Assembly (NCBI RefSeq): GCF_900090285.1
Contig: NZ_LT607754.1
Location: 4,366,001 to 4,430,000, forward strand
Direction of reading: 5' to 3'
DNA from: Micromonospora inositola
GTDB taxonomy: Bacteria; Actinomycetota; Actinomycetes; Mycobacteriales; Micromonosporaceae
DNA length: 64,000 nucleotides
Shown: one piece after another, positions 35,483-61,989 of the stretch
Position numbering within the stretch: the first letter of the stretch is position 1
Layout of the letters: every line of letters begins with the position of its first letter
Translations under genes and position numbers: made by a program
Notes under the pieces: model-generated
Databases searched by the model: none
What the model was told of the DNA's origin: nothing
The model's input: the letters and a program-made list of their open reading frames with translations, nothing else

Positions 35483-35503
35483 TTCCGGATCTGCCGATGA
35501 GCG
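35483..35503 (+). repeat. Dispersed repeat copy A
   Basis: Core TTCCGGATCTGCCGATGAGC; upstream of vanZ. Confidence 0.7.
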
Positions 35504-35581
35504 ATCACCCGATCTTGTTGCACGGGATCCACACATTTCGTTGGCGTGGGCTGATGCCCGGCCGAACTATGGTGGTCCACG

Positions 35582-36130
35582 ATGATTCCAGGCGGGTACC
35601 TGCGTTGGCTTCCGGTCGTGGCGACAGCGGTGGCTCTCGTCCTGGCCAGCCTGGTCGGCACGCGTCACCTCGTGGCCTGTTACCGGCAGCGCGGCGTCCC
35701 AGCGGGGCTGGCGGTCCGGCGGGCACTGGCCACGACGGCCATGGCGGTCTGGACGCTGCCGTGGCTGATAGTGGTCCTCACCCCACTCGACGCCCCCCGA
35801 GAGGTTCGGCTAGTGCCGCTGCGCGACCTTATGGAGATCCTCGCCGACCGCCCGCTGACCGCGTTCTTCCAGATCGGGGGCAATCTGCTGGTGTTCGCGG
35901 CGGTCGGGTTCGGTCTGGGCATGGGGTGGCAGGTCCGGTTCGCATACGTGGTCGCCGCGGCTGCGGGCATGTCGACCGCGGTGGAAGCGCTGCAGTACGC
36001 CCTGGCACTCGGACGCGTCTCGTCGATCGACGACGTGCTGTTGAACGCGACCGGTGCAGGCCTGGCCGTCCTCGCGGCGCGTCGGCTGCCGGTTCCCGAT
36101 CGCCTGCTGTCCCTACTGCCGCCGCGATGA
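35582..36130 (+). CDS. VanZ-family membrane protein
   Basis: The product is 182 residues with four to five TM helices. The VanZ core is visible: RLVPLRDLMEI, then FFQIGGNLLVFAAVGFGLGM and a STAVEALQYALALGRVSSID segment ending DDVLLNATGAGL. The conserved Glu in VEALQ and the Asp pair in SIDDVLLN are the family hallmark. VanZ proteins confer low-level teicoplanin resistance or affect the cell envelope. A copy of the dispersed repeat lies about 80 bp upstream. Confidence 0.92.
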   Translation: MIPGGYLRWLPVVATAVALVLASLVGTRHLVACYRQRGVPAGLAVRRALATTAMAVWTLPWLIVVLTPLDAPREVRLVPLRDLMEILADRPLTAFFQIGGNLLVFAAVGFGLGMGWQVRFAYVVAAAAGMSTAVEALQYALALGRVSSIDDVLLNATGAGLAVLAARRLPVPDRLLSLLPPR

Positions 36131-36270
36131 GCCCCTCCCGGTCACGGAGCCGGACACCCGCCACCGCGTGGCCATCCGCTACCACCGCTGGTCGCGTCGC
36201 AGCCGGGCTGGAGTAGCTGCAGCGATTAGAGGTCCGCTGGGGGCCACAACGTGGCAGTTATGATCTTGGC

Positions 36271-36295
36271 GTCCGGATTTGCCGCTGACAGCGCG
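36271..36295 (+). repeat. Dispersed repeat copy B
   Basis: Core GTCCGGATTTGCCG followed by hairpin CGCTG-A-CAGCG; between vanZ and the gene at 36349. Confidence 0.7.
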
Positions 36296-36348
36296 GGTGG
36301 CCGCCTGGCTCGCCATCTGTGTTCCGTGCCGCATGTGATGATCGGTTC

Positions 36349-36750
36349 GTGAGCCTTCGTGAGTGGCAGCTCCTGACGCATATCGAGCGGGCTTTCTTCA
36401 TCAACTCGTTCGAGATGGACCTCCTGCCCGGCGTGTTCGGTGACCTGGACCCCGCCCAGCCGGAGCCGTCGTTGTCCGAGCTGGCCTCCGTCCTGCTGAA
36501 CTTGGTGGACCGCGGCTGGATGGAAATGCGCCGCTACGTGCGGCGGGTTGCCAATGACGACCGGGAGGGCTTGGCGCACGGCGATCCTGTGCCGAGGGAC
36601 CAGCTGCCGGTGCTGCTGGCAGACCCCGCCAGTTGGGAGTACCCGGATGATCCGAGTTGGATTGGTGCGCTGACGCTGGTGGAGACCGAAGCCGGCAGGA
36701 CGATCAGCCGGATGTCCGCCGACGAGATTGCCACACGCGACAACGTATAG
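36349..36750 (+). CDS. Conserved hypothetical protein
   Basis: The product is 133 residues starting at GTG 36349: MSLREWQLLTHIERAFFINS, then LSELASVLLNLVDRGWMEMR and a C-terminal WIGALTLVETEAGRTISRMS. The middle resembles a winged-helix-like fold (helix, LVDRGWMEMRRY), but no named family is recognised. It is flanked on both sides by copies of the dispersed repeat (36271 and 36777), which makes it look like a discrete cassette. Confidence 0.65.
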   Translation: MSLREWQLLTHIERAFFINSFEMDLLPGVFGDLDPAQPEPSLSELASVLLNLVDRGWMEMRRYVRRVANDDREGLAHGDPVPRDQLPVLLADPASWEYPDDPSWIGALTLVETEAGRTISRMSADEIATRDNV

Positions 36751-36776
36751 GCGAGCGGCTCGGAGTCCTGTAACGG

Positions 36777-36807
36777 CATCCGCATCTGCCGCCGAGCGTG
36801 CGTCACG
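36777..36807 (+). repeat. Dispersed repeat copy C
   Basis: Core CATCCGCATCTGCCGCC with hairpin CGTG-CGT-CACG; immediately after the gene at 36349. Confidence 0.7.
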
Positions 36808-36854
36808 TTCCGTACGGATGTCGGTGCTGAAGAACCTCGGCGGGCCGTCCTTCC

Positions 36855-37364
36855 TCAGAAACCTTTCCCTTGCCGGATGACCGCGACGCCGCTTACCTCC
36901 GCGCACGGCCACAGATCGAGTTGATACCGGAAGTGCGGACCCTCCTCCAACGCCTTCACCGGCACTGGTGGCGGGCCGCACGGCACGTGCGAGACCCGGA
37001 TCCGGTACTGCCCGGCAGGGATCTCAACTCGGTGCTCGGGCCCGGGAAGTTCCATGCAGCCGAAGACGTGGACCACGCCACTCGGCACCGTCAGGTCCGC
37101 CTCCACGATGTGCTCGGCTTCGACCAAGCGCGGCTCTCCGCCGTGTACCCGCAGCGTCGTCTCGACGTGGTCGCTGCGGGCCGCGCCGATCGCGATCGAA
37201 CACGGGCCGTCCAGGCCGATGCGGTAGACGGCAACAGCATCCTCCGACCATGCTTCGGGCCAGTCGTAGCCTTCGTCTGCCTCGGCCGCCATCTGCCCGT
37301 CGATATCTTGAATATAGAACTGGCTGTGGTCGGCGAACACCAAGGCTTGGCGCACTTTGTTCAT
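36855..37364 (-). CDS. Conserved hypothetical protein
   Basis: The product is 169 residues: MNKVRQALVFADHSQFYIQD, ACRIG-free central text with AVYRIGLDGPCSIAIGAARS and VETTLRVHGGEPRLVEAEHI, and a C-terminus RYQLDLWPCAEVSGVAVIRQ. Predicted soluble, beta-rich. Proteins of this shape occur in actinobacteria and proteobacteria near competence-like or immunity-type loci, but no function can be assigned. Confidence 0.65.
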   Translation of the reverse strand: MNKVRQALVFADHSQFYIQDIDGQMAAEADEGYDWPEAWSEDAVAVYRIGLDGPCSIAIGAARSDHVETTLRVHGGEPRLVEAEHIVEADLTVPSGVVHVFGCMELPGPEHRVEIPAGQYRIRVSHVPCGPPPVPVKALEEGPHFRYQLDLWPCAEVSGVAVIRQGKGF

Positions 37365-37597
37365 CGCCGCAGCCTACTGTTCCGCCCCCAGATGCCTTCG
37401 CCGCCATGAACCAAGGTCAAGCGCACGCTTCTGCCGCTGTCCGCGCGTTGGCCCCGCCCGGCGCAGTGCGCTGTCGTGCCGACGAGCGGATGCTTCGAGT
37501 TCATCCGGACCATCGAGTACGAGACCATCGGGCGGTGCCTGGCAGCCACAACGGGGCTATCGATCACTTGGAATCTTGTCGTACTAGTCTTCGCCGC

Positions 37598-38221
37598 ATG
37601 GCCTTGCGACCGGACGAGTTCTATGACCACGCAGTCGCCGTCGCGGACAGCGAGCGCCGGCTCCCGTTGGCACGCATGACGGGATGGGAGATCAGTCCGT
37701 TCGAGCCGGACGGACTGCGCGTAGCGCCGTTGCGCCCGCCGGTGCTCCCGGAGCCCGCGCGGCACGGCGAGGATCCGTCGGACTGCAACGCCTGCCGCGA
37801 CCGGGACGAAGGGATCTGGATCAACGATCACTGGCGGCTGGTCCGGATTCCGGGAGTGGGCGTCCCGCTGGTGCTCATGCTGTATCCGCGCGATCACTAC
37901 GACATGGCGGATCTACCTGACGAACTGGCCGCCGAACTGGGGCTGTTGAGCACTCGCATCGTCCGCCACATGCAGGCACTGCCGCACATCTCGCGGGCCC
38001 ACGTCTACCGCATCGGAGATGGTGGCGCCCACCTGCACGTTTGGTTCTTCGCTCGGCCCGAGGGGCAGGCCCAATTGTACGGGTCGTGGCTGGTCGTCTG
38101 GGACGACCTGCTACCGGAGTACCCGGCGGACGTCGCAGAAGCTGACGCTGAAATCGTGGCAGACGCGTTGGCCGCGTGCCACGGAGGCCACCGGTCGCCC
38201 ACCAGCGAACCGGCCGCCTGA
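37598..38221 (+). CDS. HIT-like (histidine triad) protein
   Basis: The product is 207 residues. The near-canonical triad is GGAHLHVWFFARP (about 145-155), matching HxHxxxx of HIT nucleotide hydrolases or transferases, although the third His is Phe. An upstream CNACRDRDEG motif could bind Zn as in Fhit/GalT-like proteins. Other features are HWRLVRIPGVGVPLVLMLYP and DHYDMADLPDELAAELGLLS. It probably acts on a nucleoside-phosphate substrate. ATG 37598 begins the homologous part. Confidence 0.75.
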   Translation: MALRPDEFYDHAVAVADSERRLPLARMTGWEISPFEPDGLRVAPLRPPVLPEPARHGEDPSDCNACRDRDEGIWINDHWRLVRIPGVGVPLVLMLYPRDHYDMADLPDELAAELGLLSTRIVRHMQALPHISRAHVYRIGDGGAHLHVWFFARPEGQAQLYGSWLVVWDDLLPEYPADVAEADAEIVADALAACHGGHRSPTSEPAA

Positions 38222-38441
38222 CCGGCCTGATCCACCATCCGATTGTCACCGTCACGGCTGTTACCACCGCCGCCGTGCGGATTTGCCAAGGTCACGTATC
38301 CGGATCTGCCGCCGAGCGGGCACAGTGGCATGTAAGGAGCTCGGGTACCATCCGTGCGCGGTCCGCCGAGCCGAGTGCGCCCGAAGGCCCGGCCGCTTGG
38401 CTGTGCCGATTCGCGGTTGAGCGAGGATGTGACGGTGCGCC
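38222..38441. other. Intergenic region with dispersed repeat copies
   Basis: Contains a degenerate core at about 38275 (GTGCGGATTTGCC) and a good copy at 38297 (TATCCGGATCTGCCGCC). No supported gene. Confidence 0.5.
38297..38320 (+). repeat. Dispersed repeat copy D
   Basis: Core TATCCGGATCTGCCGCCGAG; after the HIT-like gene. Confidence 0.75.
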
Positions 38442-38555
38442 ATGAGCATCATCTTCCACAACCCGCCGTCAGCGACACCGGCAGAAGTGCGTGGGCTGAT
38501 CGACGCATGGCTGGACTCGCCGACCACCCCGCCGGCGACCGGCCCACTCACCTGA
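38442..38555 (+). CDS. Putative 37-residue small protein
   Basis: ATG 38442 encodes MSIIFHNPPSATPAEVRGLI, DAWLDSPTTPPATG, PLT. There is no clear SD, but the codon bias is actinobacterial and it begins with a helix-like segment (AEVRGLIDAWL). It may be a real micro-protein or the N-terminal stub of a lost gene; its stop lies 28 bp before the convergent response-regulator stop. Confidence 0.3.
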   Translation: MSIIFHNPPSATPAEVRGLIDAWLDSPTTPPATGPLT

Positions 38556-38582
38556 CCGCCCGGGCGGGCGCCCCGGCGCTGA

Positions 38583-39239
38583 TCAGCCACCGGGGCGCAG
38601 CAGCCCTGACTCGTACGCGAGCACCACCAGCTGGGCCCGGTCCCGCAGCCCCCGCTTGGCAAGCAAGTTGGCTACGTGCGTCTTCACCGTGCTCTCGGCG
38701 AGGAAAAGCTCGCTGGCCACCTCGGCGTTGGATAACCCCCGGCCGACCAGCCGCAGCACGTCCGTCTCCCGGGCGGTCAGCCCGGCCAGGCTCGGCGGGG
38801 TACCGGTGCCCGGCGCCGGCCGGCGCAGGAACTCCTCCACCAGCCGGCGGGTGATCGCCGGGGCGAGCAGAGCATCGCCGGTCGCCACCGTGCGGATGCC
38901 GAACGCCAACTGCTCACCGGGCACGCTCTTGAGCAGGAAGCCGGCGGCGCCGGCCCGCATCGCCTCGTAGACGTACTCGTCCAGGTCGAACGTGGTGAGC
39001 ACGAGCACCCGGGGTGGGTTGGGCAGCCGGACCACCCGCCGGGTCGCCTCGATGCCGTCGAGGGTCGGCATCCGGACGTCCATCAGGACCACGTCCGGCT
39101 CGAGCCGGCGGGCCTCATCGATCGCGGCCAGCCCGTCGGCGGCCTCGCCGACCACCTCGATGTCCGTCGCCGCGCCGAGGATCGCGGCGAGCCCGTGCCG
39201 GATCAGGGTCTCGTCGTCGGCGACCAGCACCCGGATCAC
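38583..39239 (-). CDS. NarL/FixJ-type response regulator
   Basis: The product is 218 residues. The receiver domain is 1-120 with acidic pair DDE (8-10), phosphoacceptor Asp54 (VVLMDVRMP) and Lys in FLLKSVPG. The LuxR HTH is at about 150-215 (LTARETDVLRLVGRGLSNAE, VASELFLAESTVKTHVANLL). The start is GTG 39239, overlapping the kinase stop by 4 bp. It forms a two-component pair with the sensor kinase upstream. Confidence 0.95.
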   Translation of the reverse strand: MIRVLVADDETLIRHGLAAILGAATDIEVVGEAADGLAAIDEARRLEPDVVLMDVRMPTLDGIEATRRVVRLPNPPRVLVLTTFDLDEYVYEAMRAGAAGFLLKSVPGEQLAFGIRTVATGDALLAPAITRRLVEEFLRRPAPGTGTPPSLAGLTARETDVLRLVGRGLSNAEVASELFLAESTVKTHVANLLAKRGLRDRAQLVVLAYESGLLRPGG

Positions 39240-40399
39240 GCCGTGGGCCGCAGCGGTAGGCGGGCGTGCACCCGGAAGCCGGCGGAGACGTCGAGCTCCA
39301 GGCTGCCGCCGCAGAGCGACACCCGCTCCCACATGCCGAGCAGCCCCCGGCCGGTGCCGCCGGAGCCCTCGCGCGGCTTGCCGTTGTCCCGGACGTCCAG
39401 GTCGAGCGAGTCGCTGCCGTACCGCAGCCGGACCACCACCTCACCGCCCTCGGAGTGCTTGAGCGAGTTGGTCAGCGACTCCTGGATCAGCTGATAAGCG
39501 GAGAGACCGACCCCCTTGTCGATCGGCCGGGCGGCACCCTCGATCTCGAGGCGCGCCGGCAGCCCGGCCGCTCGGAACCGCCCGACGAGCGGATCGAGCA
39601 TAGCCAGGTCGGGCTGCGGGGCGAGCTCGACGCGGGCCGGTGCGCCGCGGTCGTCCTCGTCTGCGGAGAGCAGCCGCAGCAGCCGGGCCAGCTCGACCAG
39701 CGCCGAGCGGGACGCGTCGGCGATCGCCGCGAACGCTGCGCGCGCGCTGGCCGGCTCCCGGTCGAGAAGCTGCTGGCCGGCCTCGGCCTGCACGGCGATC
39801 ACGCTCACCGTGTGCGACACCAGGTCGTGCAGCTCACGGGCGATCCGGCGCCGCTCAGCCGCGACGGCGAGGCGCGCCTGCTCCTCCCTGGTCTCCTCCG
39901 CCTGTCGGGCGCGCTCCGAGAGGGCGAGCACGTGCAGCCAGCGCTGCCGGTAAGCCGCACCCATCAACAGCGGCAGACCGATGAAGAGCACGATCGTCGG
40001 CACCACGTTGGCGAGCGAGGAGTCGGAGGGATCCAGCGCGATCGCCACCACCATCGCCGCCGACTGCGTCACCGCCGCCAGCACGCCGGCGCCGGTGCTC
40101 GCGTACGCGCCGGCGGCGAACGCCGCCACCGCCACCGCTACCAGGGCGGCCACTTCGTCGGGGGGCTCGCCGCCGAACGACACGGCGACGATCACGCCGC
40201 TCACCGCGACCGCCACCAGCACCGGATAGCGGCGACGCAACGCCAGGGCCAGGGTGACGAGCACGGTACCCGCCACGTGCTGGGCTCGCACCGCACCGGT
40301 CAGCTCGCCCATCAGCACCTCGACGAGCCCGAGCACGCAGAGCGCGACCGCCGGGGCGACGTCGACGACGGCGCGACGCCAGGTGGGGGTGGTGGTCAT
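39236..40399 (-). CDS. Sensor histidine kinase (HisKA_3/DesK-NarX class)
   Basis: The product is 387 residues. Five or six TM helices in the first ~150 residues (ALCVLGLVEVLMG onward) lack a large extracellular sensor, so it probably senses membrane or intramembrane signals. The HisKA_3 motif is ERRRIARELHDLVSHTVSVI, with the phospho-His about 190. The HATPase_c N-box is YQLIQESLTNSLKHSEG and the G-box is GTGRGLLGMWERV. It is transcribed with the response regulator and divergent from a membrane protein that could be its target. Confidence 0.95.
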   Translation of the reverse strand: MTTTPTWRRAVVDVAPAVALCVLGLVEVLMGELTGAVRAQHVAGTVLVTLALALRRRYPVLVAVAVSGVIVAVSFGGEPPDEVAALVAVAVAAFAAGAYASTGAGVLAAVTQSAAMVVAIALDPSDSSLANVVPTIVLFIGLPLLMGAAYRQRWLHVLALSERARQAEETREEQARLAVAAERRRIARELHDLVSHTVSVIAVQAEAGQQLLDREPASARAAFAAIADASRSALVELARLLRLLSADEDDRGAPARVELAPQPDLAMLDPLVGRFRAAGLPARLEIEGAARPIDKGVGLSAYQLIQESLTNSLKHSEGGEVVVRLRYGSDSLDLDVRDNGKPREGSGGTGRGLLGMWERVSLCGGSLELDVSAGFRVHARLPLRPTA

Positions 40400-40601
40400 G
40401 GCGTGCAGCCTAGGCGGGAGCGATCCGGGACCGCGTCCGCCTGTCGTACCGGTCACCTCGATCCGGTTCCACCCGCAGGTGGAGCCGATCACCACTCGCG
40501 GCGGGGGTGTCCGGGGGCCGGGATCCCTAGCGTCTGGGTCGTGCCGGTTCGCGGCACGAACCGGCAACGCCGGCTCCAACCACTTCCACTGGGAGATCAC
40601 C

Positions 40602-41273
40602 GTGACCGTTCCGTCCAGCCGCGCAGGCCGGCCGCTGGCCGCCGCCCTGGTCGCCGCACCGCTGCTCTATCTCGTCTCCGAACTGATCGTGCCGCGCAAC
40701 TACGTCGAGGACAAACCAGCCGCCGAGCTGGCGATGCTCGCGGAGCACCATTACGCGTTCCTCGCCGCTGCCCTGCTCGACTTCACCACGATGGTGCTGT
40801 TCGCCGCCGCGGTACCAGCCGTCGTCCGGCTCGTCCGCGGTCGCGGCCGGGTCTTCATCCGGATCGCCGGAACCATGGTGTTCCTCGGCACCATGGGCCT
40901 CGCGGCGCACGCCATGTTCGCCCTGTCGGACCTCGACCTGGCGGCCAACCCGCAGCGCGACGCGATGGCGGCGGCGAGCGAGGTCATCTCCAGCGGCACC
41001 GCCGCGATCCTCATCCTGGTGCTGCGGCTCTTCGCCTTCGATCTCGGACTGACCCTGCTCACCATCGCCGCCTGGCGGGCACGGCTGATCCCGGTCTGGG
41101 CGGCGCCGTTCGGCTTCCTCGCGCTCGTCGGCGACTTCTCACCCGGCAACTACAACGGGATCCTCTGGGCGATCGCGTCAACGGCGGCGTTCGGGATGAT
41201 CGCGCTGAGCCTCCTGCGGCGCAGCGAGTCGGCCGAACTGCCCGCACCGGCCATGCTCCCAGCGAACGCCTGA
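40602..41273 (+). CDS. Integral membrane protein, unknown
   Basis: The product is 223 residues with about seven hydrophobic helices (LAAALVAAPLLYLVSELIV, AALLDFTTMVLFAAAVPAVV, ILILVLRLFAFDLGLTLLTI and others). Start GTG 40602 follows GGGAG. It is divergent from the NarL-type two-component genes with about 200 bp between, an arrangement in which such systems often regulate the neighbour. No family motif is recognised. A strong terminator follows. Confidence 0.8.
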   Translation: MTVPSSRAGRPLAAALVAAPLLYLVSELIVPRNYVEDKPAAELAMLAEHHYAFLAAALLDFTTMVLFAAAVPAVVRLVRGRGRVFIRIAGTMVFLGTMGLAAHAMFALSDLDLAANPQRDAMAAASEVISSGTAAILILVLRLFAFDLGLTLLTIAAWRARLIPVWAAPFGFLALVGDFSPGNYNGILWAIASTAAFGMIALSLLRRSESAELPAPAMLPANA

Positions 41274-41277
41274 AAGG

Positions 41278-41319
41278 AAGGGGCCCTTGTTATCGCACTC
41301 CGCATAGCAAGGGCCCTTT
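41278..41319 (+). terminator. Hairpin AAGGGGCCCTTGTTAT / ATAGCAAGGGCCCTTT with T-rich tail
   Basis: 16-bp arms with two mismatches and a 10-nt loop, followed by TTTATT, starting 4 bp after the membrane-protein stop. The GGGGCCCTTGTTA text is a terminator type I recall from Micromonospora genomes, which supports the taxon guess. Confidence 0.85.
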
Positions 41320-41341
41320 ATTAACAGCATGGGCTGGGTGA

Positions 41342-41471
41342 TCAGCCGGCCATAACCCGCTGGTGCAGCGCGGAGACCGCCGAACGGGCGGCGACGAACG
41401 CGCCGTGCTGCCAGGCCACCTCGTGCCTCACCGGCGAAGTAGACCCGACCCGTCTCAGAATCGGGCGCGGG
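41342..41471 (-). pseudogene. Flavin amine oxidase C-terminal remnant
   Basis: One frame reads DSETGRVYFAGEA; the next frame continues VRHEVAWQHGAFVAARSAVS, ALHQRVMAG and a stop. Joined, this is the FAD-dihydrophobic C-terminal motif of amine oxidases, where GRVYFAGE contacts the flavin and WQHGAF follows. Only about 43 residues of a normal 450 or more remain, with one frameshift. Confidence 0.7.
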
Positions 41472-41511
41472 CGGCCAGCGAGATGCCGCAGCGTGAACGT
41501 CTTGAGGGTGA

Positions 41512-41590
41512 CATCCTCATTTGCCGCGATCCGCGCGCTACGCGGCGTCACGAAGTGCTGACTCGGCCGGCATACGCACATAGCCGAGAT
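41512..41590 (+). repeat. Dispersed repeat copy E, long form
   Basis: Core CATCCTCATTTGCCGC with stem CCGCG-CGCTA-CGCGG and about 40 further bp shared with the copy at 47484 (differences: one T/C and one extra A in 68 bp). Confidence 0.85.
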
Positions 41591-41779
41591 GAGGACGTTC
41601 GATCAAGCAGCACGCCGTACCGCATCGCCTGTGCTTCGTCGAGCCAGCTTGGTGTAGGCGTGACGTATCGGGCTGGCAACCGTAGCGTGTTCCGTCTCGA
41701 GCGGTTCCGGCCTGACCAGGCGTTGATAGGTGGTGGAGGGAACATGCGGCGCCGGCGGCGTTTGTCCTGGTCGGGAACA

Positions 41780-54194: not shown

Positions 54195-55133
54195 GTGGAT
54201 CTCGAACCTTACCGGAGTGAGTTGGTTGCGTACTGCTATCGGATGCTGGGCTCGTTTCACGATGCTGAGGATCTGGTCCAGCAGACGATGTTGCGAGCCT
54301 GGAAGGCCCGTGACCGGTACGACCGCGGACGGGCGTCGGTGCGGACCTGGTTGTACCGGATCGCCACGAACGCGTGCCTGACCGCGTTGGAGGGGCGGGC
54401 GCGTCGGCCGTTGCCGTCCGGGCTGGGCGCGGCATGTGACGATCCTGGCGCGCCACTCGCAGCGGCGTTCGATGTCCCTTGGCTGCAGCCGTTTCCCGAT
54501 GCCCGGTTCGACTTGGAGGTGCGGGCTGACCTGCGGCTCGCGCTGGTGGCGGCGATGCAGGTGCTGCCGGCGCGTCAGCGGGCCGTGCTCCTGCTCCGGG
54601 AGGTACTGCAGTTCAGTGCCGGCGAGGTAGCCGCACAACTGGGGACCACGGTCGCAGCCGTCAACAGCACGCTGCAGCGTGCTCGTGCCGCCCTCTCAGC
54701 CGTGGGTGACATCGGCGAGGTCACCGAGCCGGACGATCCCCGGGTACGGGCGGTGATCGAACGGTATGTGCGGGCGTTCGAGGCGGCTGACGTCCCGGCG
54801 CTCGTGCGGCTGCTCACCGACGATGCGGTCCTGGAGATGCCGCCGGTCCCGCTCTGGTATCGCGGCAGCCGCCACTACGGCCTGTTCATGGACCGCGTGT
54901 TCCAGATGCGCGGGACGGACTGGGTCATGAGGCACCTCACCGCCAACGGGCAGCCGGCACTCGCCGCGTACGCGCCGGAGTCCTGTGGCGGGCATCGACT
55001 CCACACCCTGCAGATATTCACGGTCGTCGGCGACCGGGTCGCGCACAATGTCGTGTTCGCCGATCCGCGTGTGTTCGAGGCGTTCGACCTTCCCCAGCAG
55101 ATTTCTTCCGACGAGGTTCGCCAGGCGCGATGA
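54195..55133 (+). CDS. ECF sigma factor with C-terminal SnoaL-like domain (SigJ/SigX5-type)
   Basis: The product is 312 residues. Sigma2 (about 1-70) is RSELVAYCYRMLGSFHDAED, LVQQTMLRAWKARDRYD and RTWLYRIATNACLTALE. Sigma4 (about 120-175) is LPARQRAVLLLREVLQFSAG, EVAAQLGTTVAAVNSTLQRA. Residues about 190-312 form an NTF2/SnoaL-like domain (RVRAVIERYVRAFEAADVPA, LVRLLTDDAVLEMPPVPLWY) that regulates this ECF class and substitutes for an anti-sigma factor. GTG 54195 is preceded by a weak SD. It is followed 56 bp later by a RibD-like reductase gene that may be co-transcribed. Confidence 0.94.
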   Translation: MDLEPYRSELVAYCYRMLGSFHDAEDLVQQTMLRAWKARDRYDRGRASVRTWLYRIATNACLTALEGRARRPLPSGLGAACDDPGAPLAAAFDVPWLQPFPDARFDLEVRADLRLALVAAMQVLPARQRAVLLLREVLQFSAGEVAAQLGTTVAAVNSTLQRARAALSAVGDIGEVTEPDDPRVRAVIERYVRAFEAADVPALVRLLTDDAVLEMPPVPLWYRGSRHYGLFMDRVFQMRGTDWVMRHLTANGQPALAAYAPESCGGHRLHTLQIFTVVGDRVAHNVVFADPRVFEAFDLPQQISSDEVRQAR

Positions 55134-55189
55134 GTCCGAGCGGTGCCGCCGGTATGTACGGGTAGGCATCGAACGAAGGGGCATACGTC

Positions 55190-55747
55190 GTGAGCGTCAT
55201 CGTCATTCAGTTCATCACCCTGGACGGAATCGTGTCGGATCCGGACGGATCGGGGGGCACACCGACCGGTGGCTGGGCGTTCCGGCACGGTCCCGAGACG
55301 GTCGCCGGTGACAAGTTCCGCCTCGGAAGTATGCTGGACGACGGGATCCTGCTGCTGGGGCGTACCACCTGGCAGTTGTTTTCCCATCTCTGGCCAGGAC
55401 GCGATGACCCGTTCTCCGCACGGATGAACGCCACGCCCAAACTGGTCGCCTCTCGCACCATGACTGACTCCTCGGCGTGGGCGAACTCGCAGGTCATCGA
55501 CCGCGACCTGATAGATGCCGTCAAGCACGAGCAACGCGATGTGATCATCACCGGCAGCTTGAGTATTGTGCACGCCCTGATGGCCGAGGACCTCATCGAT
55601 GAGTACCGGCTCCTGACCTTCCCCACCGTCCTCGGCACCGGCCGGCGACTCTTCCTCGCCGGCAAGCCGCCTACCTACCTGCGGTGTCTGTCGGCAGAGC
55701 AGGCCGGTGCCGCCGTCCTCACGCGGTACGGGAGAACAGCACAGTGA
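55190..55747 (+). CDS. Dihydrofolate reductase / RibD C-terminal-like protein
   Basis: The product is 185 residues: MSVIVIQFITLDGIVSDPDG, GWAFRHGPETVAGDK, DDGILLLGRTTWQLFSHLWP, DVIITGSLSIVHALMAEDLI, DEYRLLTFPTVLGTGRRLF. This is the bacterial RibD_C-type reductase that binds NADPH; similar proteins are common with ECF sigma factors in actinobacteria. It is not a true FolA. The start is GTG 55190. A dispersed repeat begins about 60 bp after the stop. Confidence 0.92.
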   Translation: MSVIVIQFITLDGIVSDPDGSGGTPTGGWAFRHGPETVAGDKFRLGSMLDDGILLLGRTTWQLFSHLWPGRDDPFSARMNATPKLVASRTMTDSSAWANSQVIDRDLIDAVKHEQRDVIITGSLSIVHALMAEDLIDEYRLLTFPTVLGTGRRLFLAGKPPTYLRCLSAEQAGAAVLTRYGRTAQ

Positions 55748-56135
55748 CAACGCGGTTCGTCCATCCCGGTGCCGGCACTCGCCGGGCGACGGCGCGAAGC
55801 ACGGACATCCGGATCTGCCGCGATCCGCGCGGCCTGGGCCAGTAGGACGGAAGCCGCGCGGGGCACATCTGGACTCCTCGCCTTCGCGGTCGTACAGCCA
55901 TTGGTGCAGCCAACACGGCAGACAGAGTCTGATGGAGAGCGGCGTCGGCAGACTTCTGATGCAGGTGAACGGTCATCACCGGCACCAGCCGACGGATCGC
56001 GCCATCTTTGCAATGCAGGGGTTCGGCGGCGCCATCACCCAACAACAACGGATGGGCCGACCAGGTGCGCAACCACCTGACCCGCCGGTCTCAGGATGAG
56101 GGCGGTAAGGGTCCGCCAGCGTGCGGGCCGTTCTG
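55748..56135. other. Intergenic region with a dispersed repeat
   Basis: About 390 bp. A strong copy at 55806 has the GATCCGCGCGG hairpin part. No other supported feature; reading frames on both strands look like random translation. Confidence 0.55.
55806..55840 (+). repeat. Dispersed repeat copy M
   Basis: Core CATCCGGATCTGCCGC followed by GATCCGCGCGG; after the RibD-like gene. Confidence 0.8.
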
Positions 56136-56258
56136 CTATCGGTACAAGCTCGGCGAGACTGTGCCGGCGAGGAACAGCCCGCCGCAACACAGCACCAGCC
56201 CCAGGATGGCCCCCGTTATTACCCACGCCAGGATCCGGACCGGTTTGGCACCACGCAT
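56136..56258 (-). CDS. 40-residue single-TM micro-protein
   Basis: ATG 56258 encodes MRGAKPVRILAWVITGAILG, LVLCCGGLFLAGTVSPSLYR and a TAG stop. It has a positively charged N-terminus, a continuous 22-residue hydrophobic helix with a Cys pair, and a polar C-terminus. GGTGGG lies about 11 nt upstream. It resembles small actinobacterial membrane peptides, and the codon pattern supports coding. Confidence 0.5.
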   Translation of the reverse strand: MRGAKPVRILAWVITGAILGLVLCCGGLFLAGTVSPSLYR

Positions 56259-56600
56259 CAGTAGTATCACCCACCAATCTCGATGAGATTCAACCAGGCA
56301 AGAGCGCTATTCAGAACGTGTGACGTCCACTGTGGCCAAGAACACGCATGTCGCTAAGGGGGCGACGGCGGGCGCACTTCCGGCACGCCGGGCTGCGACG
56401 GATGCCCTGCCGGCAGGCGTGCGTCACGCTCCGTAGCATCCGCGCGTGGTTGTCTCGGTCATGTTCACGTGCGCGCCTGTCTCTGGTCACTGTCGTGAGC
56501 CGGGACAGTACTACAGATGACCGTGCTCACCACTCGTTTCATCCGAGGTCGGGCCATCCACGGGCCAGTAGCCGGTACCCCGAGCGGTCGCCGCCGGGCG
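56259..56600. other. Intergenic region with a repeat-related sequence
   Basis: A diverged copy at 56407-56433 shares GCGTGCGTCAC and TCCGTA with the copy at 36777. No supported gene. Confidence 0.4.
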
Positions 56601-57425
56601 TCAGCGGTCAGCGCCGACGGTGTAGGCGTCGAAGTATGGCAGTAGCCGTACCCCGTGCGACGGCACGGGTGCTGGCGCGGTGTCGCCGGCCGAGACCCAG
56701 GCGACCGTGCCGGCGACGTCGACCTGTTGCAGTTCGCCGACGAGGGAGTCGAACAACTGGGTCGCCCAGCGGCGAGGCGCGGACAGCCACTGCGCGAACT
56801 GCTGCGGTGTTGCCGGCCCGTACGCGTGCAGGTAGCGCCGGACCAGGCCGGCGAGGGCGTCGGGTGCCGGTGCGGGCCGGAATCCTGGCAGCCACCGTTG
56901 CGGGCTGGTGTAGGTGACCTTCCGTCCACGGTTCGGGCCGAAACGGAGTGCGCCACGGTGTGCGGCAAGGTGTATCGCCTGTCGCCAGCGCGGCCACATG
57001 CCGCCGAACCCGGGCACGACCGGGTCGGCGGCCCAAGAGCCGGTGCGGGCGACCACCGCTGCGGTGAGGTCGTCGATTGTCAGTTCCGCGTCGGCCAGTG
57101 CTTCCGCGATCGCCGAGACGACCTCGTCGGTCTGGTCTCTGGTCAGCCGCGCGTCGGCGGGCAGGCTGTTCGAGGACGGTGGCAACGCGCCGAGCGCGCC
57201 GGTCCACAGCGGTAGATCACGCGTCGGCAGCAGGTGCACGGTGCCGCGCGGCCCGAACGTCTTGACCGGGCTACGTTCCTTCCACAGCGCGTCTCGAACG
57301 TCGTTGCGGGTGGTGCCGGCTACGCGCAACCCGATGGACACCTCAGCGGCGGAGAGCACTTGAGCGTGCGCGCCGCACATGGCGGCAACGGCATCGGCTG
57401 GCCGGCCGCGTACCGGAGCGGACAT
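56601..57425 (-). pseudogene. AlkZ/YcaQ-like winged-helix DNA glycosylase family gene, degraded at both ends
   Basis: The main frame gives ADAVAAMCGAHAQVLSAAEV, DALWKERSPVKTFGPRGTVH, PQQFAQWLSAPRRWATQLFD and GVRLLPYFDAYTVG, matching the HTH_42/AlkZ family. Relatives continue with CHPREL and another ~60 residues; here the frame reads ADR and stops. Upstream, the expected N-terminal RRLRRQQ segment is present only in another frame (near 57480). The gene probably lost both termini, although a ~275-residue product from ATG 57425 remains possible. Confidence 0.7.
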
Positions 57426-57677
57426 GCGCCACGGCGCCGCGCAAGCGCGGCGCAGGGCCGGCCCCGCTCGGCCTGCTGGCGGCGTAAGCGCCGGCATCGG
57501 CCGGCGCGCCGGCCGAGGTCACGTCCCGTGGCCTTCGGACGGGCCCAGGTGCACAACGCGGTCGCCGGGACCCGGCAACGTCTCTAGCGCCGCGCCGTCG
57601 TGACCGCTCACCGCCGAAGCGTCGAGGCCAGCAGAACCGGTGGGCACGACATGCTCGGGGTCTCGACGGGTTCGTGC

Positions 57678-58526
57678 TCAGACCATGCGACGTAGCGCGG
57701 TCTCCACGGCGTCGATCAGCGGATCACCCTCGGTCCGTGGGTGCCGTGCGAGACCGAGCTCGACGTCCGGCAGGACGGGCAGGGCGTCCGCGTCGTGGCA
57801 GGCCATGACCGGTTCGAGGTTCGCGGGCATGAGCGCCGCGACGCCGAGCCCGGCCCGTACCGCGGCGAGCACCCCGACCAGGCTGTTGCTTTCGAAGGCC
57901 ACCCGCCAGCGCCGATCGGCACGTTCCAGCGTTTCCAGCACTGACGTACGCCAGGAGCACGGGTTCGAGAACAGCACCACCGGCAGCGGATCGGCAGCCA
58001 CGTCCATACCCTGGCCGATCGCCCAGACCAGCGGGCGGCGTACCGTCCAGCGCGGCGGCCCGGGAACGTCCGGCACCGCGTCGAGCACGAGTTGGACGCG
58101 GCCCGCGTCGTAGGCTTCCCGCATCGCGGCGCTGGAAATGCTGAGCACCTCCAGCGTCGCGCCGGGGTGCAGCCGGGCGAGGTCGGCGAGGGCCTGCGGA
58201 AGCTGGGACGCGGCGAGGTCTTCGAGCAACCCGACGACGCAGTGGCCGGTAAGCGCGCGTCCGGTTTCGGTGAGTGCCTGGGCGGAGAGCGAGAGAATGC
58301 GTTCGGCGTACGGCAGGAGTTCCTCACCCGCCCGGGTCGGCGAGACGCCAGACGGCGACCGGTAAAGCAGCGGACGGCCGACAACGCTCTCGAGCTTGCG
58401 CAACTGCTGGCTGAGCGCGGGCTGGGTATGTCCGAGCGCGGTCGCGGCACGGCTGATGCTGCCCGCCCGCACGGCGGTGACGAACGACCGCAGCAACGCG
58501 GTCTCAAGATCTCTGGCCATAAGCAT
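57678..58526 (-). CDS. LysR-family transcriptional regulator
   Basis: The product is 282 residues. The LysR HTH is 1-65: LLRSFVTAVRAGSISRAATA, LGHTQPALSQQLRKLESVVG, RPLLYRSPSGVSPT. Then comes the linker and LysR substrate domain (VVGLLEDLAASQLPQALADL to FESNSLVGVLAAVRAGLGVA, ALMPANLEPV). The start could be ATG 58526 or 58520. It is divergent from an MFS gene, with ATAA-N7-TTAT between, and probably controls it. Confidence 0.94.
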   Translation of the reverse strand: MLMARDLETALLRSFVTAVRAGSISRAATALGHTQPALSQQLRKLESVVGRPLLYRSPSGVSPTRAGEELLPYAERILSLSAQALTETGRALTGHCVVGLLEDLAASQLPQALADLARLHPGATLEVLSISSAAMREAYDAGRVQLVLDAVPDVPGPPRWTVRRPLVWAIGQGMDVAADPLPVVLFSNPCSWRTSVLETLERADRRWRVAFESNSLVGVLAAVRAGLGVAALMPANLEPVMACHDADALPVLPDVELGLARHPRTEGDPLIDAVETALRRMV

Positions 58527-58534
58527 TCATTATG
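58518..58534. promoter_or_regulatory. LysR-type box CATAAGCATTCATTATG
   Basis: Inverted ATAA/TTAT with the T-N11-A form overlaps the start of lysR and lies 60 bp before the MFS start. It is a candidate autoregulatory or activation site. Confidence 0.5.
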
Positions 58535-58592
58535 CCAGCTCCAACAAATTACCCACTTCTTATGATGTGACGGATGATTTAACGTCACGCTG

Positions 58593-59798
58593 GTGACCGG
58601 ATACCGACAGGTGCTCGCCGTGCCAGGGATGGCATCGCTGCTGGGCGTTTCGCTGCTTGCCCGCACCGCGATAACGGCCGACGTGATGGCACTGACGCTG
58701 TATGTCGTGCTGGGCCTGGAGCTGAGCTACGCGGCAGCGGGCGGTGTCGCGGCGGCTCTGACCGCCGGAGTGGCGCTGGGCGGGCCGCTGCTCGGCCGCA
58801 TGATCGACTCGCGGGGCCTGCGCACCGTGCTGCTGGTAACCGTCGTAGTGCAGGTCGTGTTCTGGCTGAGCGTGCCGATCCTGCCGTATGGGTTCCTGCT
58901 GGTCGCCAGCTTCGTGGCGGGTCTGCTGATGGTGCCGGCCCAGGCGGTGAGCAGGCAGGCGATCGCCGCGATGACGACAGCGGAGCAGCGCCGGGCCGCG
59001 TTTGCGCTGGAATCGGTGCAGGGCGAGCTGTCGTACATCGTGGGCCCGGCGGTGGTGATCCTGTGTGCGGCGACGATGTCCCCCGATGTGGTGGCGTGGG
59101 GGGTCGGTGCCGCGATCGTGGCCGGCGGAGCCGGAATCGCCTTGCTCAACCCACCGGTGCGTGCCGATGCCGAGGCGGATGCCGGCGCGGCCGGACGGCC
59201 CCCGCGCAGGCAGTGGCTGGGCGCCGGAATGACCGCCGTGCTGACGATGGCGTTCGGCACGACGACGCTGCTCAGCGGCGTCGACCTCGCCATCGTCGCC
59301 ACGCTGCAAGAAGCAGGTCAGGTGTCCTGGGCTGCCGTGGTCGTAGTGGTGTTCGGCGTGTCGTCCGTCGTCGGCGGACTGATCTACGGCGCGCTGACCC
59401 GGCCGCTGCCCACGTGGCTGCTGCTCGGCTTGCTCGGGCTTGTGACGATTCCCGCCGGGCTCGCCCACGACTGGCCCTGGTTGTGCGTGGCCGTCGTCGG
59501 CAGCGGGCTACTCACCGCGCCGACCCTTGCCACGGTGGCCGACGCGGTGAGCCGGCTGGCGCCGGCCGGCGTGCGGGGTGAGGCGACAGGTCTGCAATCG
59601 TCAGCGCAGAGCGCTGGTTTCGCGCTCGGATCCCCGCTCGTCGGCGTGGCGATCGACGTCTCCGTGCCGGCGGGCGGCTTCGCGGCGGCCGGGCTGGCCG
59701 GCCTCGCCGCCGCACTGACCGGACACCTACTGTCCCGCCGCTCGCCCGCTCGAACGGCGGTGCCCTACCACCCTGGTCCAGTTGATCTCGGATATTGA
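58593..59798 (+). CDS. MFS transporter
   Basis: The product is 401 residues with twelve helices. The loop 2-3 motif is LGGPLLGRMIDSRGLRTVLL, followed by SVPILPYGFLLVASFVAGLL. The second half has GVSSVVGGLIYGALTRPLPT and a C-terminal region LQSSAQSAGFALGSPLVGVA. It is an exporter-like type that often follows LysR. The start is GTG 58593. It overlaps the next gene closely (3 bp between). Confidence 0.92.
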   Translation: MTGYRQVLAVPGMASLLGVSLLARTAITADVMALTLYVVLGLELSYAAAGGVAAALTAGVALGGPLLGRMIDSRGLRTVLLVTVVVQVVFWLSVPILPYGFLLVASFVAGLLMVPAQAVSRQAIAAMTTAEQRRAAFALESVQGELSYIVGPAVVILCAATMSPDVVAWGVGAAIVAGGAGIALLNPPVRADAEADAGAAGRPPRRQWLGAGMTAVLTMAFGTTTLLSGVDLAIVATLQEAGQVSWAAVVVVVFGVSSVVGGLIYGALTRPLPTWLLLGLLGLVTIPAGLAHDWPWLCVAVVGSGLLTAPTLATVADAVSRLAPAGVRGEATGLQSSAQSAGFALGSPLVGVAIDVSVPAGGFAAAGLAGLAAALTGHLLSRRSPARTAVPYHPGPVDLGY

Positions 59799-59800
59799 GC

Positions 59801-60313
59801 GTGGCGAGGCGGCGGCGGGGTGCCGCGATCCTGCCGGGAGACGAAGTACGACTCGCGGGTGAGCTGCCAGCCAGCTTGACGGACGACGATGCCGCTTGGC
59901 TGCGAGGAACCGTGTTCGTCGTCCGCTACGTCGGTGACGACGCGACAATCGACGTGCAACCGGACTTGACCGAGGACTACGTGATCAAGGCGGTCCCGAT
60001 TGCCATCATGAAGCCCGCAAAGACGCAGAGCGCGGCGCAGAACCGAGCATCCGCTCATGCCGCGAGTCGCGCGCGCCGACAACCTGCGAGGCGTTTGGGC
60101 CTGGTGCGGGCAAGTGCGGACGCGGTGGCGAGACGTCGGCCGAGCCGGCGGGCTGTCGACCGCCGAAGCTGCAGGTTCGGCGACCGGGGTCTAGCTCGGG
60201 CCACGGCCAACGCACGGTCAACCCAAGGGGTGAGAGCAGATCAAGGTCGCTTTCCGTGGCCGTTCGCGTTACGGCTCAGTTGTCGTGGCGCGAACGAGCG
60301 CAGTCCGGGATAG
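59801..60313 (+). CDS. Small hypothetical protein extended into a repeat copy
   Basis: Residues 1-75 (VARRRRGAAILPGDEVRLAG, DDAAWLRGTVFVVRYVGDDA, TIDVQPDLTEDYVIKAVPIA) form a small beta-barrel-like domain of unknown function. After IMKPAK the frame passes through a diverged repeat (60048-60075) and a long Arg-rich tail to 60313. The tail is probably run-on caused by insertion of the repeat, so the native protein was about 78 residues. GTG 59801 or TTG 59795 starts it, 2-8 bp after the MFS stop. Confidence 0.55.
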   Translation: MARRRRGAAILPGDEVRLAGELPASLTDDDAAWLRGTVFVVRYVGDDATIDVQPDLTEDYVIKAVPIAIMKPAKTQSAAQNRASAHAASRARRQPARRLGLVRASADAVARRRPSRRAVDRRSCRFGDRGLARATANARSTQGVRADQGRFPWPFALRLSCRGANERSPG

Positions 60314-60324
60314 CCTTGACGTAT

Positions 60325-60612
60325 ATGGCTACCTATCGCAGCACCTCAGTGCTTCTCTCCTCGGACGGCACCAGGACCCCCGGCACCGCCGCGCTCTTCG
60401 CCGAGCCCGCCCGCAAGGGTGGGACCCCGCCGTGGGCAGGCGACTTCCGACCCGCCAACAGCGCCGGCAATGGCCCCAAGAACGCGGTCGGGAAGACCTT
60501 TACGTTGGAGCTGCCCGACGGCAGCACCGGCAAGGTCGTGGTCCAGAGCCTCAAGAGCGGGAAGGGAGGCGTCGTGCTGGCGTTGATGGGCGAGGACGCA
60601 CCCCCCTTCTGA
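60325..60612 (+). CDS. Small conserved hypothetical protein
   Basis: The product is 95 residues: MATYRSTSVLLSSDGTRTPG, FAEPARKGGTPPWAGDFRPA, VGKTFTLELPDGSTGKVVVQ, SGKGGVVLALMGEDAPPF. It has a disordered N-terminal half and a beta-strand C-terminal half. ATG 60325 fits. No family recognised. It is followed by two clustered repeat copies (60746-60797). Confidence 0.6.
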   Translation: MATYRSTSVLLSSDGTRTPGTAALFAEPARKGGTPPWAGDFRPANSAGNGPKNAVGKTFTLELPDGSTGKVVVQSLKSGKGGVVLALMGEDAPPF

Positions 60613-60745
60613 TCAGGAGACTGATCGCCGCCGACGCCACCGGCTCGAGACGACCGGTATGCGACCCTGCCGATGTCAATGCGTTCGGATAGCTGCCGGG
60701 CGCATTGCCTCACCCGTGGCTGGGCGTCGACGAAGGTCAGGTGTA

Positions 60746-60797
60746 CTGATCTGCCGCTGACAGCGCGTCCGAGACGACCGGATCTGCCGATGAGCGG
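60746..60797 (+). repeat. Dispersed repeat copies N and O
   Basis: CTGATCTGCCGCTGACAGCG then, 29 bp on, CGACCGGATCTGCCGATGAG; tandem pair between two hypothetical genes. Confidence 0.75.
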
Positions 60798-60852
60798 ACG
60801 CTCCGAGGGCGGCAGACGCGAAACGACGGTGCGGTCCTCACAGGGGCTGTGG

Positions 60853-61848
60853 ATGATGGTTGGCGTGACTGAGAAGGGCAGCGGGTCCGCGGAGCAGCGC
60901 CTGTACGACGCTGTGGCGCGATGGAACGCCGACACCGGGTACGGCCTGGCGGACATGATCCATGCCGCCTGCCAGGCGCTGATCGACGGGCTGGACTCGC
61001 CGACGTTGCGCGAACTCGCTGGCGCTTCGGTGAGAGACTCATCCTGGGATATCCGCGAACTCGTGGCCAAGTCGCTCGAGGAACTCAAGATCCCCTACCC
61101 GGGCACTGTCCCCCCAGGCTTCGCCCTTGCAACAGGCGGAGGAGTCGCCCGCCGGCCAGGAGTCGACTCTCTACGTTTGGAAGTAACGCCGGCGCCCGGC
61201 GACGCAGGCGGCGGATTCCAAGTGCAGGTCTACGTCAACGGTACGGAGATGACCTCTGCGGCAGCGGGCCTCGGGATGGACCCGTACGACGTCCTTGTCC
61301 CCACCAATCGTCTGGTGGCCGCCTCCCAGCCGCGCACCGTCCCGATCGCCCGCTGCGAATGCGGCGTGTACGGCTGTGGATCCACAGACGTCACCATCAC
61401 GCGGGACGGCGAACTGGTGCACTGGGACTGGTCGATCGAGGTGCCCATGAACCGCGGCGTCTCCTTCGCGGCCGCCGAGTACGACGTGGAAGTCGCACGG
61501 GTGGCCGCGGATCATTCGTGGGAGACGGCAGAGCGCACAGCCGGACGACGTGTCCTGACGGACATGGACCGCGAACGGTTGCTCACCCACGGCCTCAGAA
61601 CCAGTTGGGTCGCCAACGACTACCGCGATCACGAGCTGTTCCGGGTCGCCCTTCAGATCGACGGTGACTACCAGGTCTTCGTCGACACCCTGTGGCGTGG
61701 CCGTGGCCCCGAGGAGTTGGCGCGCGAGGTGTGCGCCACCTTGGCACTTCCTCCCAGTGAGTGGCGCGCCACCTGGCACGCCATCAAGCCCACGCTGACC
61801 AAGCCGCCGAAGATCGCGGGGCCGTCCTGGCGACCCGCGCGGTTCTAA
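60853..61848 (+). CDS. Conserved hypothetical protein
   Basis: The product is about 331 residues. The N-terminal part (AEQRLYDAVARWNADTGYGL, LRELAGASVRDSSWDIRELV) is helical. The centre has a Cys-rich CECGVYGCGSTDV motif between beta-rich stretches (RLEVTPAPGDAGGGFQVQVY, VHWDWSIEVPMNRGVSFAAA). The C-terminal segment is YRDHELFRVALQIDGDYQVF. The CxCxxxxCG cluster could bind zinc. No family is recognised; such proteins occur in actinobacteria with no known function. The start may be 60853, 60856 or 60865. Confidence 0.7.
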   Translation: MMVGVTEKGSGSAEQRLYDAVARWNADTGYGLADMIHAACQALIDGLDSPTLRELAGASVRDSSWDIRELVAKSLEELKIPYPGTVPPGFALATGGGVARRPGVDSLRLEVTPAPGDAGGGFQVQVYVNGTEMTSAAAGLGMDPYDVLVPTNRLVAASQPRTVPIARCECGVYGCGSTDVTITRDGELVHWDWSIEVPMNRGVSFAAAEYDVEVARVAADHSWETAERTAGRRVLTDMDRERLLTHGLRTSWVANDYRDHELFRVALQIDGDYQVFVDTLWRGRGPEELAREVCATLALPPSEWRATWHAIKPTLTKPPKIAGPSWRPARF

Positions 61849-61911
61849 CAGCAGCCAGCCGGCACCAGGTCCACGCTGCCGGTTGGGATGGGCGGACCAC
61901 GCAGACGGAAA

Positions 61912-61989
61912 CATCCTCATCTAATGCCGCTGGTCGGGCGTTGGCAGCTCAACGAGTGGGGCACGTCCGGATCTGCCGCGATCCGCGCG
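61912..61989 (+). repeat. Dispersed repeat copies P and Q
   Basis: CATCCTCATCTAATGCCGC at 61912, and CGTCCGGATCTGCCGCGATC at 61964 with CCGCGCG following. The second is the best uninterrupted analogue of the IS110 target. Confidence 0.75.

Follow-up and report, generated by a model that had tools for sequence, protein, structure and literature searches.

What are the short repeats that fill the intergenic gaps of one half of a chromosomal region, all in one orientation, and how did unrelated genes come to lie between them? This question is raised by a 64,000-nucleotide stretch of the Micromonospora inositola chromosome (NCBI contig NZ_LT607754.1, positions 4,366,001 to 4,430,000; hereafter the window, with positions counted from its first letter). 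A preliminary description, made from the letters alone, had proposed a REP-like or single-stranded attC-like element, in which a constant core is followed by a variable, structure-conserving stem. Comparison of the window with other arrays in the same genome and in relatives instead points to directional 26-bp cores of the kind used by tyrosine recombinases. Together with a Xer-like recombinase gene found inside such arrays, here called int, these cores probably form a chromosomal cassette-shuffling system that is integron-like and dif-module-like yet a member of neither group. We place it in neither because there is no IntI, the sites are not folded attC sites, the cores are direct, and the orientation of the cargo genes is random.

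Architecture and Direction of the Core Site

A search of the window with CATCCGGATCTGCCGC, allowing up to three mismatches, returns 15 matches (13 on the plus strand and 2 on the minus strand), as compared to 1.8 expected, and none of 100 shuffles reaches 15. An iterated weight matrix, trained on the same arrays that it then scored, finds 23 cores of at least 11 bits. All lie on the plus strand, from 35484 to 61966, with none on the minus strand and none in the first 35 kb. The dispersed same-orientation family of the preliminary description is therefore real. Two of the diverged copies that it listed, at 54074 and 60048, are cores, and the other two, at 51100 and 56407, fall under 11 bits.

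The weight-matrix consensus of the core is directional and reads CRYNC-N5-TGCCG(C/A)-N5-GNRYG. Two degenerate arms of about 10 bp, mutually inverted in the consensus, flank a near-invariant TGCCG that is followed by C or A, and this fixed center sets the direction of the core. In a matrix of 160 cores, the per-base conservation of TGCCG is 94-99%, and the arms are degenerate. The architecture looks like that of a tyrosine-recombinase crossover site. The small dyad that had been described as following the core is the center plus the right arm of the 26-bp core itself.

Many cores are paired. In a double site, a core with TGCCGC (C-type) is followed by a core with TGCCGA (A-type) 30-97 bp on, and the spacing is strongly clustered, with peaks at 45-46, 57-60, and 79-81 bp. 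Of 267 C-type cores, 124 have an A-type partner above the 95% control level; a C-type partner precedes 110 of 169 A-type cores. Many of the copies originally counted as single elements are thus one half of a double site. Pairing the two core motifs loosely by mismatch count was rejected, as chance matches swamped the signal.

The repeats had also been thought confined to the accessory half of the stretch, which is true within the window, but roughly a dozen further locations in the genome also have cores. A profile search (E up to 1) gives ~145 cores, a total that is approximate because only 150 candidates were scored and matches were listed to E 1. The clusters lie at ~0.55, 1.45-1.52, 2.08-2.14, 2.52, 3.57-3.60, 4.07, 4.18, 4.28-4.29, 4.40-4.43, 4.70, 4.76-4.81, 5.21-5.24, 6.40-6.44, and 6.56-6.59 Mb. 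Each runs mostly in one direction, but that direction differs from cluster to cluster. Over the fetched stretches of this genome, the matrix scores 158 sites on the plus strand and 5 on the minus strand at 12 bits. Most of 40 fetched stretches from M. inositola and relatives have cores on a single strand; the exceptions are L132 and L134, in which both directions occur in blocks, and three stretches with one odd site each (L151, L152, and L154). GC skew is flat across the genome, and the origin was therefore taken from dnaA at 1.93 Mb. The strand bias relative to replication that the preliminary description had proposed to test is not claimed: counted by hand, and with the terminus placed opposite the origin, 12 of 18 clusters point the same way as replication, not a significant excess.

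Exchange of Modules between Arrays and Species

Blocks of sequence common to different arrays often end at the cores. Alignments of at least 85% identity and at least 40 bp among 34 array stretches with at least three cores each (M. inositola and relatives) yield 573 common blocks. Within 15 bp of a core center, 193 of these start and 198 end, as compared to 18 for random positions. Block ends fall most often on the first base of TGCCG or on the base that follows it. Both ends lie at cores in 36 alignments, comprising 29 short C-to-A spacers (S modules), 4 cargo modules (A-to-C), and 3 C-to-C blocks.

Several window modules illustrate this pattern. The VanZ-like module at 35.5-36.3 kb recurs directly after int at 4.070 Mb, with 99.5% identity over 796 bp and both ends at TGCCG. 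The module at 37430..38312 has a core-bounded copy elsewhere in the genome (Table 1); its cargo part is also found in G014 and at 3.590 Mb, and further copies are 97-98.5% identical. The S module of the A-type core at 51204..51229 recurs at 4.804 and 4.808 Mb (100% over 50 bp, ends core-bounded), and a third near-copy at 4.802 Mb is 98% identical to these two sites.

Cargo recurs in different surroundings. The 21 cargo families with more than one member hold 45 of 226 modules and give 28 pairs. Neighbors differ on both sides in 24 pairs, on the left only in 1, on the right only in 1, and on neither side in 1; the remaining pair lies at a contig edge. Shared cargo thus has different neighbors on both sides in 24 of 27 pairs. 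The earlier impression that genes lie between the copies like cassettes is upheld.

Blocks of at least 500 bp were also compared with the divergence of the species, for which one chromosomal Xer-like gene provides a thin yardstick. The nine blocks shared with G037 (87.2-97.5%) include 97.5% over 2,276 bp and 95.4% over 952 bp, versus 87% for the gene. The ten shared with G014 (85.3-97.6%) include 97.4% over 843 bp, versus 85 and 89% for fragments of the gene, and the five shared with G010 (87.0-95.5%) include 95.5% over 2,895 bp, versus 89%. For G047, two of five blocks are above the 90% of the gene.

Whole arrays vary between sister species. The backbone is 94-97% identical to that of G043 up to 34326 and 95% identical over 2.9 kb again from 67229. 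The DNA directly beside the intervening 33-kb island is 97% identical on the left and 95% on the right. In place of the island, the syntenic stretch of G043 consists of ~0.82 kb of unrelated sequence, in which there is no core on the array strand and one 7-bit match on the other. The reverse case is found at G043 5395287-5403998, where ~8.7 kb with ten cores (12-28 bits) stands opposite 170 bp in M. inositola (window 21437-21607). The comparison of orthologous gaps that had been proposed for single copies thus gives presence and absence of arrays, in both directions (window 34327 onward; 21437-21607). No mechanism of array insertion is claimed; a core-like word at the empty gap (21.5 kb of the window) is misaligned with the edge of the G043 insertion and has the opposite direction.

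The cargo of the window comprises genes for a VanZ-like protein, a response regulator, MFS transporters, a glyoxalase, an esterase with a hemerythrin domain, a phosphotransferase of the APH family, a YCII protein, sigma-70 factors, RibD-C, an AlkZ-like glycosylase, and a LysR regulator. Pfam gives no family match for 6 of the 20 window proteins scanned. Among 138 modules with one clear open reading frame, as judged by a simple heuristic, 64 run with the core strand and 74 against it. Because cargo genes run both ways relative to the cores, a common promoter is unlikely, and the genes are presumed to have their own promoters.

A Xer-like Recombinase Gene within the Arrays

As had been noted, the window contains no integrase gene. 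The likely recombinase is encoded elsewhere in the genome, which has 35 matches to the phage-integrase family. One Xer-like subfamily of ~305 amino acids lies within arrays; int is intact at 4.069 and 5.209 Mb, and a third copy, at 5.235 Mb, is frameshifted. The latter two share one large array, in which the frameshifted copy (L072) lies between two intact cores. Damaged copies are a fragment inside the array at 1.456 Mb and a gene in the array at 6.564 Mb. Directly behind the 6.564-Mb copy is a different transposase gene, and a core resembling the right core of this int lies ~2 kb further (L153:12376).

The intact genes carry R-K-H-R-H-Y, read from the alignment, which we take to be the catalytic residues. 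A C-type core stands just before the int start and an A-type core ~19-26 bp past its stop; where both are detected, the cores are 983-995 bp apart, and the module is ~985 bp long. The proteins score 103-109 bits with the XerD model, under its cutoff. With the integron integrase model TIGR02249, three int copies score 40-44.9 bits against a cutoff of 265, and only the C-terminal ~65 residues align. The predicted fold (mean predicted local distance difference test score, pLDDT, 80.5; predicted template-modeling score, pTM, 0.62; segment of the catalytic Tyr poorly modeled) is nearest to XerA, an archaeal Xer, the Brujita integrase, and XerD, with IntI4 at rank 16. We infer that this recombinase is the putative catalyst of core exchange.

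The S modules contain no genes, and 46 of 62 resemble the int leader beyond shuffles (p = 0.0002; control 45 of 111). An S module may, tentatively, be a remnant or a regulatory relative of the int leader.

Distribution of int and Cores across Genomes

A scan of species genomes with two short int peptides, which detects only relatives sharing one of the two, gives 65 int loci in genomes other than M. inositola. We take their genera to be Micromonosporaceae, except Nocardia vinacea. Genes up to 81-85% identical to int are also present in G085 and G094, which belong to another family of the same order, and the fetched stretches of these genomes (L138 and L152) hold 8 and 4 same-strand cores. The system therefore extends beyond a single family.

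We picked 41 of the 65 loci, mostly those with the longer int matches. In these, the int strand carries 237 cores of at least 14 bits and the opposite strand 14, of which 9 are in one locus. In 28 of the 41 loci, the int match has an A-type core of at least 9 bits behind it, at 19-34 bp in 25 of them, and a C-type core lies within 260 bp ahead of int in 23. Congeners with int carry more cores than those without (median 9 versus 2; 12 versus 48 genomes; p = 0.006), in a comparison that excludes the genome of M. inositola itself and counts partial int matches as int. Arrays from genomes in which no int of this subfamily was detected are L155 (G033), with 10 cores, and L158 (G057), with 6; they are comparable to integrase-less integron arrays.

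Three plasmid records hold relatives of int, all below 60% identity. Phage records with a relative number 93, and 91 of these are Arthrobacter or Gordonia phages. Identity is ~47% among the ten phage matches listed, and one further record falls in the 60-80% band. Such phages are a possible source of the cassette recombinase.

An IS1111/IS110-Type Element in the Sites

An insertion sequence (IS) at 45823-47482 sits exactly between the left arm of a core and its TGCCG. Two more M. inositola copies are inserted into cores at this very point, where a right end is also found in G043. In the noncoding region 3' of the transposase gene stand ATGCCGCG and, in reverse complement, CCGGTCAT; these match the two sides of the target. 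The presence of both target halves in this region suggests a guide RNA aimed at these cores, which would choose the target. The IS is a parasite of the cassette system, not the system itself. According to PMC11187229, elements of the IS1111 type such as ISKpn4 and ISPst6 have a fixed insertion point in attC and a noncoding region 3' of the transposase gene. The present IS is like these in occupying a fixed point of a cassette recombination site and in its 3' noncoding region, and unlike them in that its target is the TGCCG core.

Proposed Mechanism

The sequence comparisons described above show the architecture and direction of the core, exchange points at TGCCG, modules common to different arrays and species, and a same-strand int inside arrays. 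We propose that the arrays are same-direction chains of modules joined at cores, the modules being cargo genes of 0.3-4 kb, gene-less S spacers of 30-97 bp that usually run from C-type to A-type, and the ~985-bp int module. The recombinase would bind the core arms and would cut and swap strands inside TGCCG between any two same-direction cores. The DNA between two such cores would leave as a circle with one hybrid core, and the excised circle could re-enter at any core. We infer int to be the catalyst, with circles as the intermediate, in a system that remains active.

A number of observations weigh against this mechanism. The housekeeping XerC/D could be the catalyst. The window array has no int, the nearest intact copy being 0.33 Mb away; the left core of the 4.069-Mb int is too degenerate for detection by the matrix; and the 6.564-Mb copy (L062:1120-2034) has its catalytic Tyr replaced by His. 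No A-type partner is found for 143 of 267 C-type cores. Of the 573 common blocks, 380 have their start, and 375 their end, outside the 15 bp around a core center, for which divergence, undetected cores, or other events are offered as explanations. Block identities are biased upward because blocks below 85% were not kept, and the 22 blocks of at least 500 bp shared with the closest species, G043 (86.2-99.5%), have no clear excess over the Xer-like gene (93%) or the backbone (94-97%). Five genomes (G003, G020, G027, G035, and G041) have an int match yet 0-2 cores at E up to 0.01, and G007 has 12 cores without int. A looser matrix finds 10 cores in the stretches fetched from G003 and 9 in those from G035.

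In its widest form the proposal is one toward which we lean with less assurance: an independent counterpart of the integron, centered on Micromonosporaceae, in which a Xer-derived recombinase, itself a module, would shuffle gene modules, tens to hundreds of them in each genome, among chromosomal arrays and from species to species. Double-strand exchange would take place at a degenerate 26-bp core that needs little beyond a TGCCG match, and the gene-less spacer would perhaps derive from the leader of the recombinase.

Alternative Explanations

The same cores could be served by host XerC/XerD, as for the pdif/dif modules of Acinetobacter, with int a passenger. This is the strongest alternative, and we consider it unlikely. 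The size and two-armed design of the core are like those of dif-type sites. Some genomes have cores without int, and the modules shuffle as dif modules do (PMC13141974). However, int stands between cores ~983-995 bp apart, where both are detected, the cores share the int strand in many genera, and core number rises with int. Moreover, all cores of an array are direct, and dif-module sites alternate in orientation.

Slightly less probable still is an origin like that of miniature inverted-repeat transposable elements, in which decayed or non-autonomous copies of one transposon, namely the int module and S modules as its deletion derivatives, enter intergenic gaps and the genes between them are immobile. 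S modules and the int module do hold the same C-type-to-A-type position, and the likeness of S modules to the int leader fits such a descent. Free insertion, however, would not predict the strand coherence within arrays, and immobile genes sit poorly with near-identical cargo between different neighbors and with four cargo blocks cut at TGCCG on both ends.

We regard a true but diverged integron, with single-stranded DNA attC hairpins recombined at a single point by an IntI-type integrase, as very improbable. It would explain cassette arrays with a double-core site, some with an integrase whose 3' core resembles the attI next to intI, and IS1111-type elements that sit in the sites as other such elements sit in attC. 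Double sites also fold very slightly better than controls: for 68 deduplicated double sites with cores 40-70 bp apart, the mean z relative to shuffles is -0.48 for the top strand and -0.43 for the bottom strand, with -0.09 and -0.08 for neighboring controls. This folding is neither strong nor strand-biased, the top strand being the more stable in 29 of the 68. Across 92 sites, six arm pairings (within the core, across the double site, and across the cargo gene as a circular attC) give no total covariation beyond shuffles, the largest total z being 1.5. Single positions deviate: one end of the within-site hairpin reaches z 2.4, and one nearly invariant position of the S-circle pairing reaches z 6-8 (0.98-0.99 versus 0.96-0.97). 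These were not taken as a stem. The integron R boxes RYYYAAC and GTTRRRY occur in 2 and 5 of 93 sites and together in none (controls 0 and 1 of 93). The int proteins reach 40-45 bits with the integrase model against its cutoff of 265, the two cores run in the same direction instead of antiparallel, exchange involves each of them, and cargo orientation is random. The structure-conserving stem of the preliminary description fails because the arms do not covary and the folding is not unusual. That description had let its REP-like or attC-like element stand or fall with compensatory changes in the stem, and there are none. An Rfam scan of the array half of the window gives no match up to E 1.

Least credible are REP-like structured repeats without recombinase function, with the common blocks left to ordinary homologous recombination: the cores are indeed many-copy short intergenic repeats, but they have no conserved stem, and they share just TGCCG and loosely conserved arms, which is less sequence than homologous recombination needs. 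Matches to Y1-type transposases, the kind associated with REP elements, are few, with three in the genome (4.71, 4.87, and 6.31 Mb, one of them ~10 kb from two 4.70-Mb cores) and, as first described for RAYT transposases, none in the window.

Features of the Window

The features of the array are collected in Table 1. Past 61989 and up to 68 kb, there is no core of at least 10 bits on either strand.

Table 1. Coordinates of the array, its cores, and selected modules (positions of the whole window)
Feature	Position	Strand	Basis
Variable island holding the array	34327..64000, continuing 3,228 bp past the window end		Synteny with G043
A-type core (TGCCGA), single, first of array	35482..35507	+	23.6 bits
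Cargo module with VanZ-like gene (35582-36127, +)	35496..36281		Pfam VanZ, 55 bits
C-type core (TGCCGC)	36270..36295	+	Weight matrix
C-type core	36777..36802	+	Weight matrix
C-type core, first half of double site	37422..37447	+	Weight matrix
A-type core, 45 bp past C-type core 37422..37447	37467..37492	+	Weight matrix
S module and cargo gene 37598-38218 (+)	37430..38312		Copy at 5.222 Mb, 98.6% over 883 bp, both ends at TGCCG
C-type core	38297..38322	+	Weight matrix
C-type core	41512..41537	+	Weight matrix
Cargo stretch common to G010: MFS (by Pfam), sigma factor and YCII (named by eye) genes	41743..44637		95.5% over 2,895 bp, ends not at cores
C-type core	44703..44728	+	Weight matrix
Left arm of IS-split core	45811..45822	+	Sequence
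IS1111/IS110-type insertion sequence within core; transposase 46037-47434	45823..47482	-	Pfam DEDD_Tnp_IS110, Transposase_20
Split core, right half (IS end, TGCCGC, right arm)	47473..47498	+	Weight matrix
A-type core	47532..47557	+	Weight matrix
C-type core	50316..50341	+	Weight matrix
Degenerate C-type core (TTCCGC)	51158..51183	+	Weight matrix
A-type core, 46 bp past core 51158..51183	51204..51229	+	Weight matrix
C-type core	52023..52048	+	Weight matrix
A-type core (TGTCGA)	52080..52105	+	Weight matrix
C-type core	54008..54033	+	Weight matrix
A-type core	54067..54092	+	Weight matrix
C-type core	55806..55831	+	Weight matrix
C-type core	60048..60073	+	Weight matrix
A-type core, weak (18 bits)	60658..60683	+	Weight matrix
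C-type core	60742..60767	+	Weight matrix
A-type core, 33 bp past core 60742..60767	60775..60800	+	Weight matrix
C-type core, last of array	61964..61989	+	Weight matrix

Comparison with Known Systems

In keeping with the suggestion that the element is undescribed, none of the titles listed in literature searches outside subscription journals and preprints describes this cassette system, nor was a description seen in PMC9024848, PMC8138268, PMC11187229, PMC2727003, or PMC13141974. In PMC9024848, Actinobacteria are reported without a complete integron.

The arrays are like integrons in that unrelated genes are arranged at repeated same-strand sites and a tyrosine recombinase gene is present in some arrays, and also in their double-core sites, their integrase-less arrays, and the IS1111-type elements in the sites. 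The integron trait of an integrase gene with an adjacent site beside the array is found at many loci, with the A-type core by int in 28 of 41, and not in every array. The arrays differ from integrons in several respects. The recombinase is Xer-like, not IntI, and int lies between two cores like a module. Its sites act as double-stranded cores that lack a folded strand and R-box motifs. Cassette genes of integrons run mostly in one direction, whereas cargo orientation is random here. Both cores carry TGCCG on the same strand, and blocks end at both types, unlike integron attC, for which PMC2727003 describes two antiparallel cores with recombination at one.

With dif modules and pdif sites (XerCD, Acinetobacter), the arrays have in common extensively shuffled modules, each flanked by tyrosine-recombinase sites in which two arms enclose a short central region. 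They differ in having their own recombinase gene, in place of what is presumably host XerCD, in the single direction of the sites within an array, in chromosomal arrays of tens of modules, and in phylum. Dif modules are reported as unique to Acinetobacter in PMC13141974. The simple tyrosine recombinases of actinophages (Brujita; Arthrobacter and Gordonia phages) include relatives of int, and the solved structures that best match the predicted int fold include that of the Brujita integrase. A phage integrase serves one attP/attB, whereas int lies in arrays of many cores.

If the proposed mechanism is correct, it could account for some of the gene content that varies in Micromonospora, Actinoplanes, and their kin, and the degenerate core with its small single recombinase could serve as a tool in rare actinomycetes. 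It would also make testable whether cassette systems need single-stranded attC folding at all. The arrays of Micromonosporaceae would then represent an integron-like solution, large arrays of exchangeable gene modules, reached with a different enzyme and a different site, and thus a second chromosomal cassette platform to set beside integrons.

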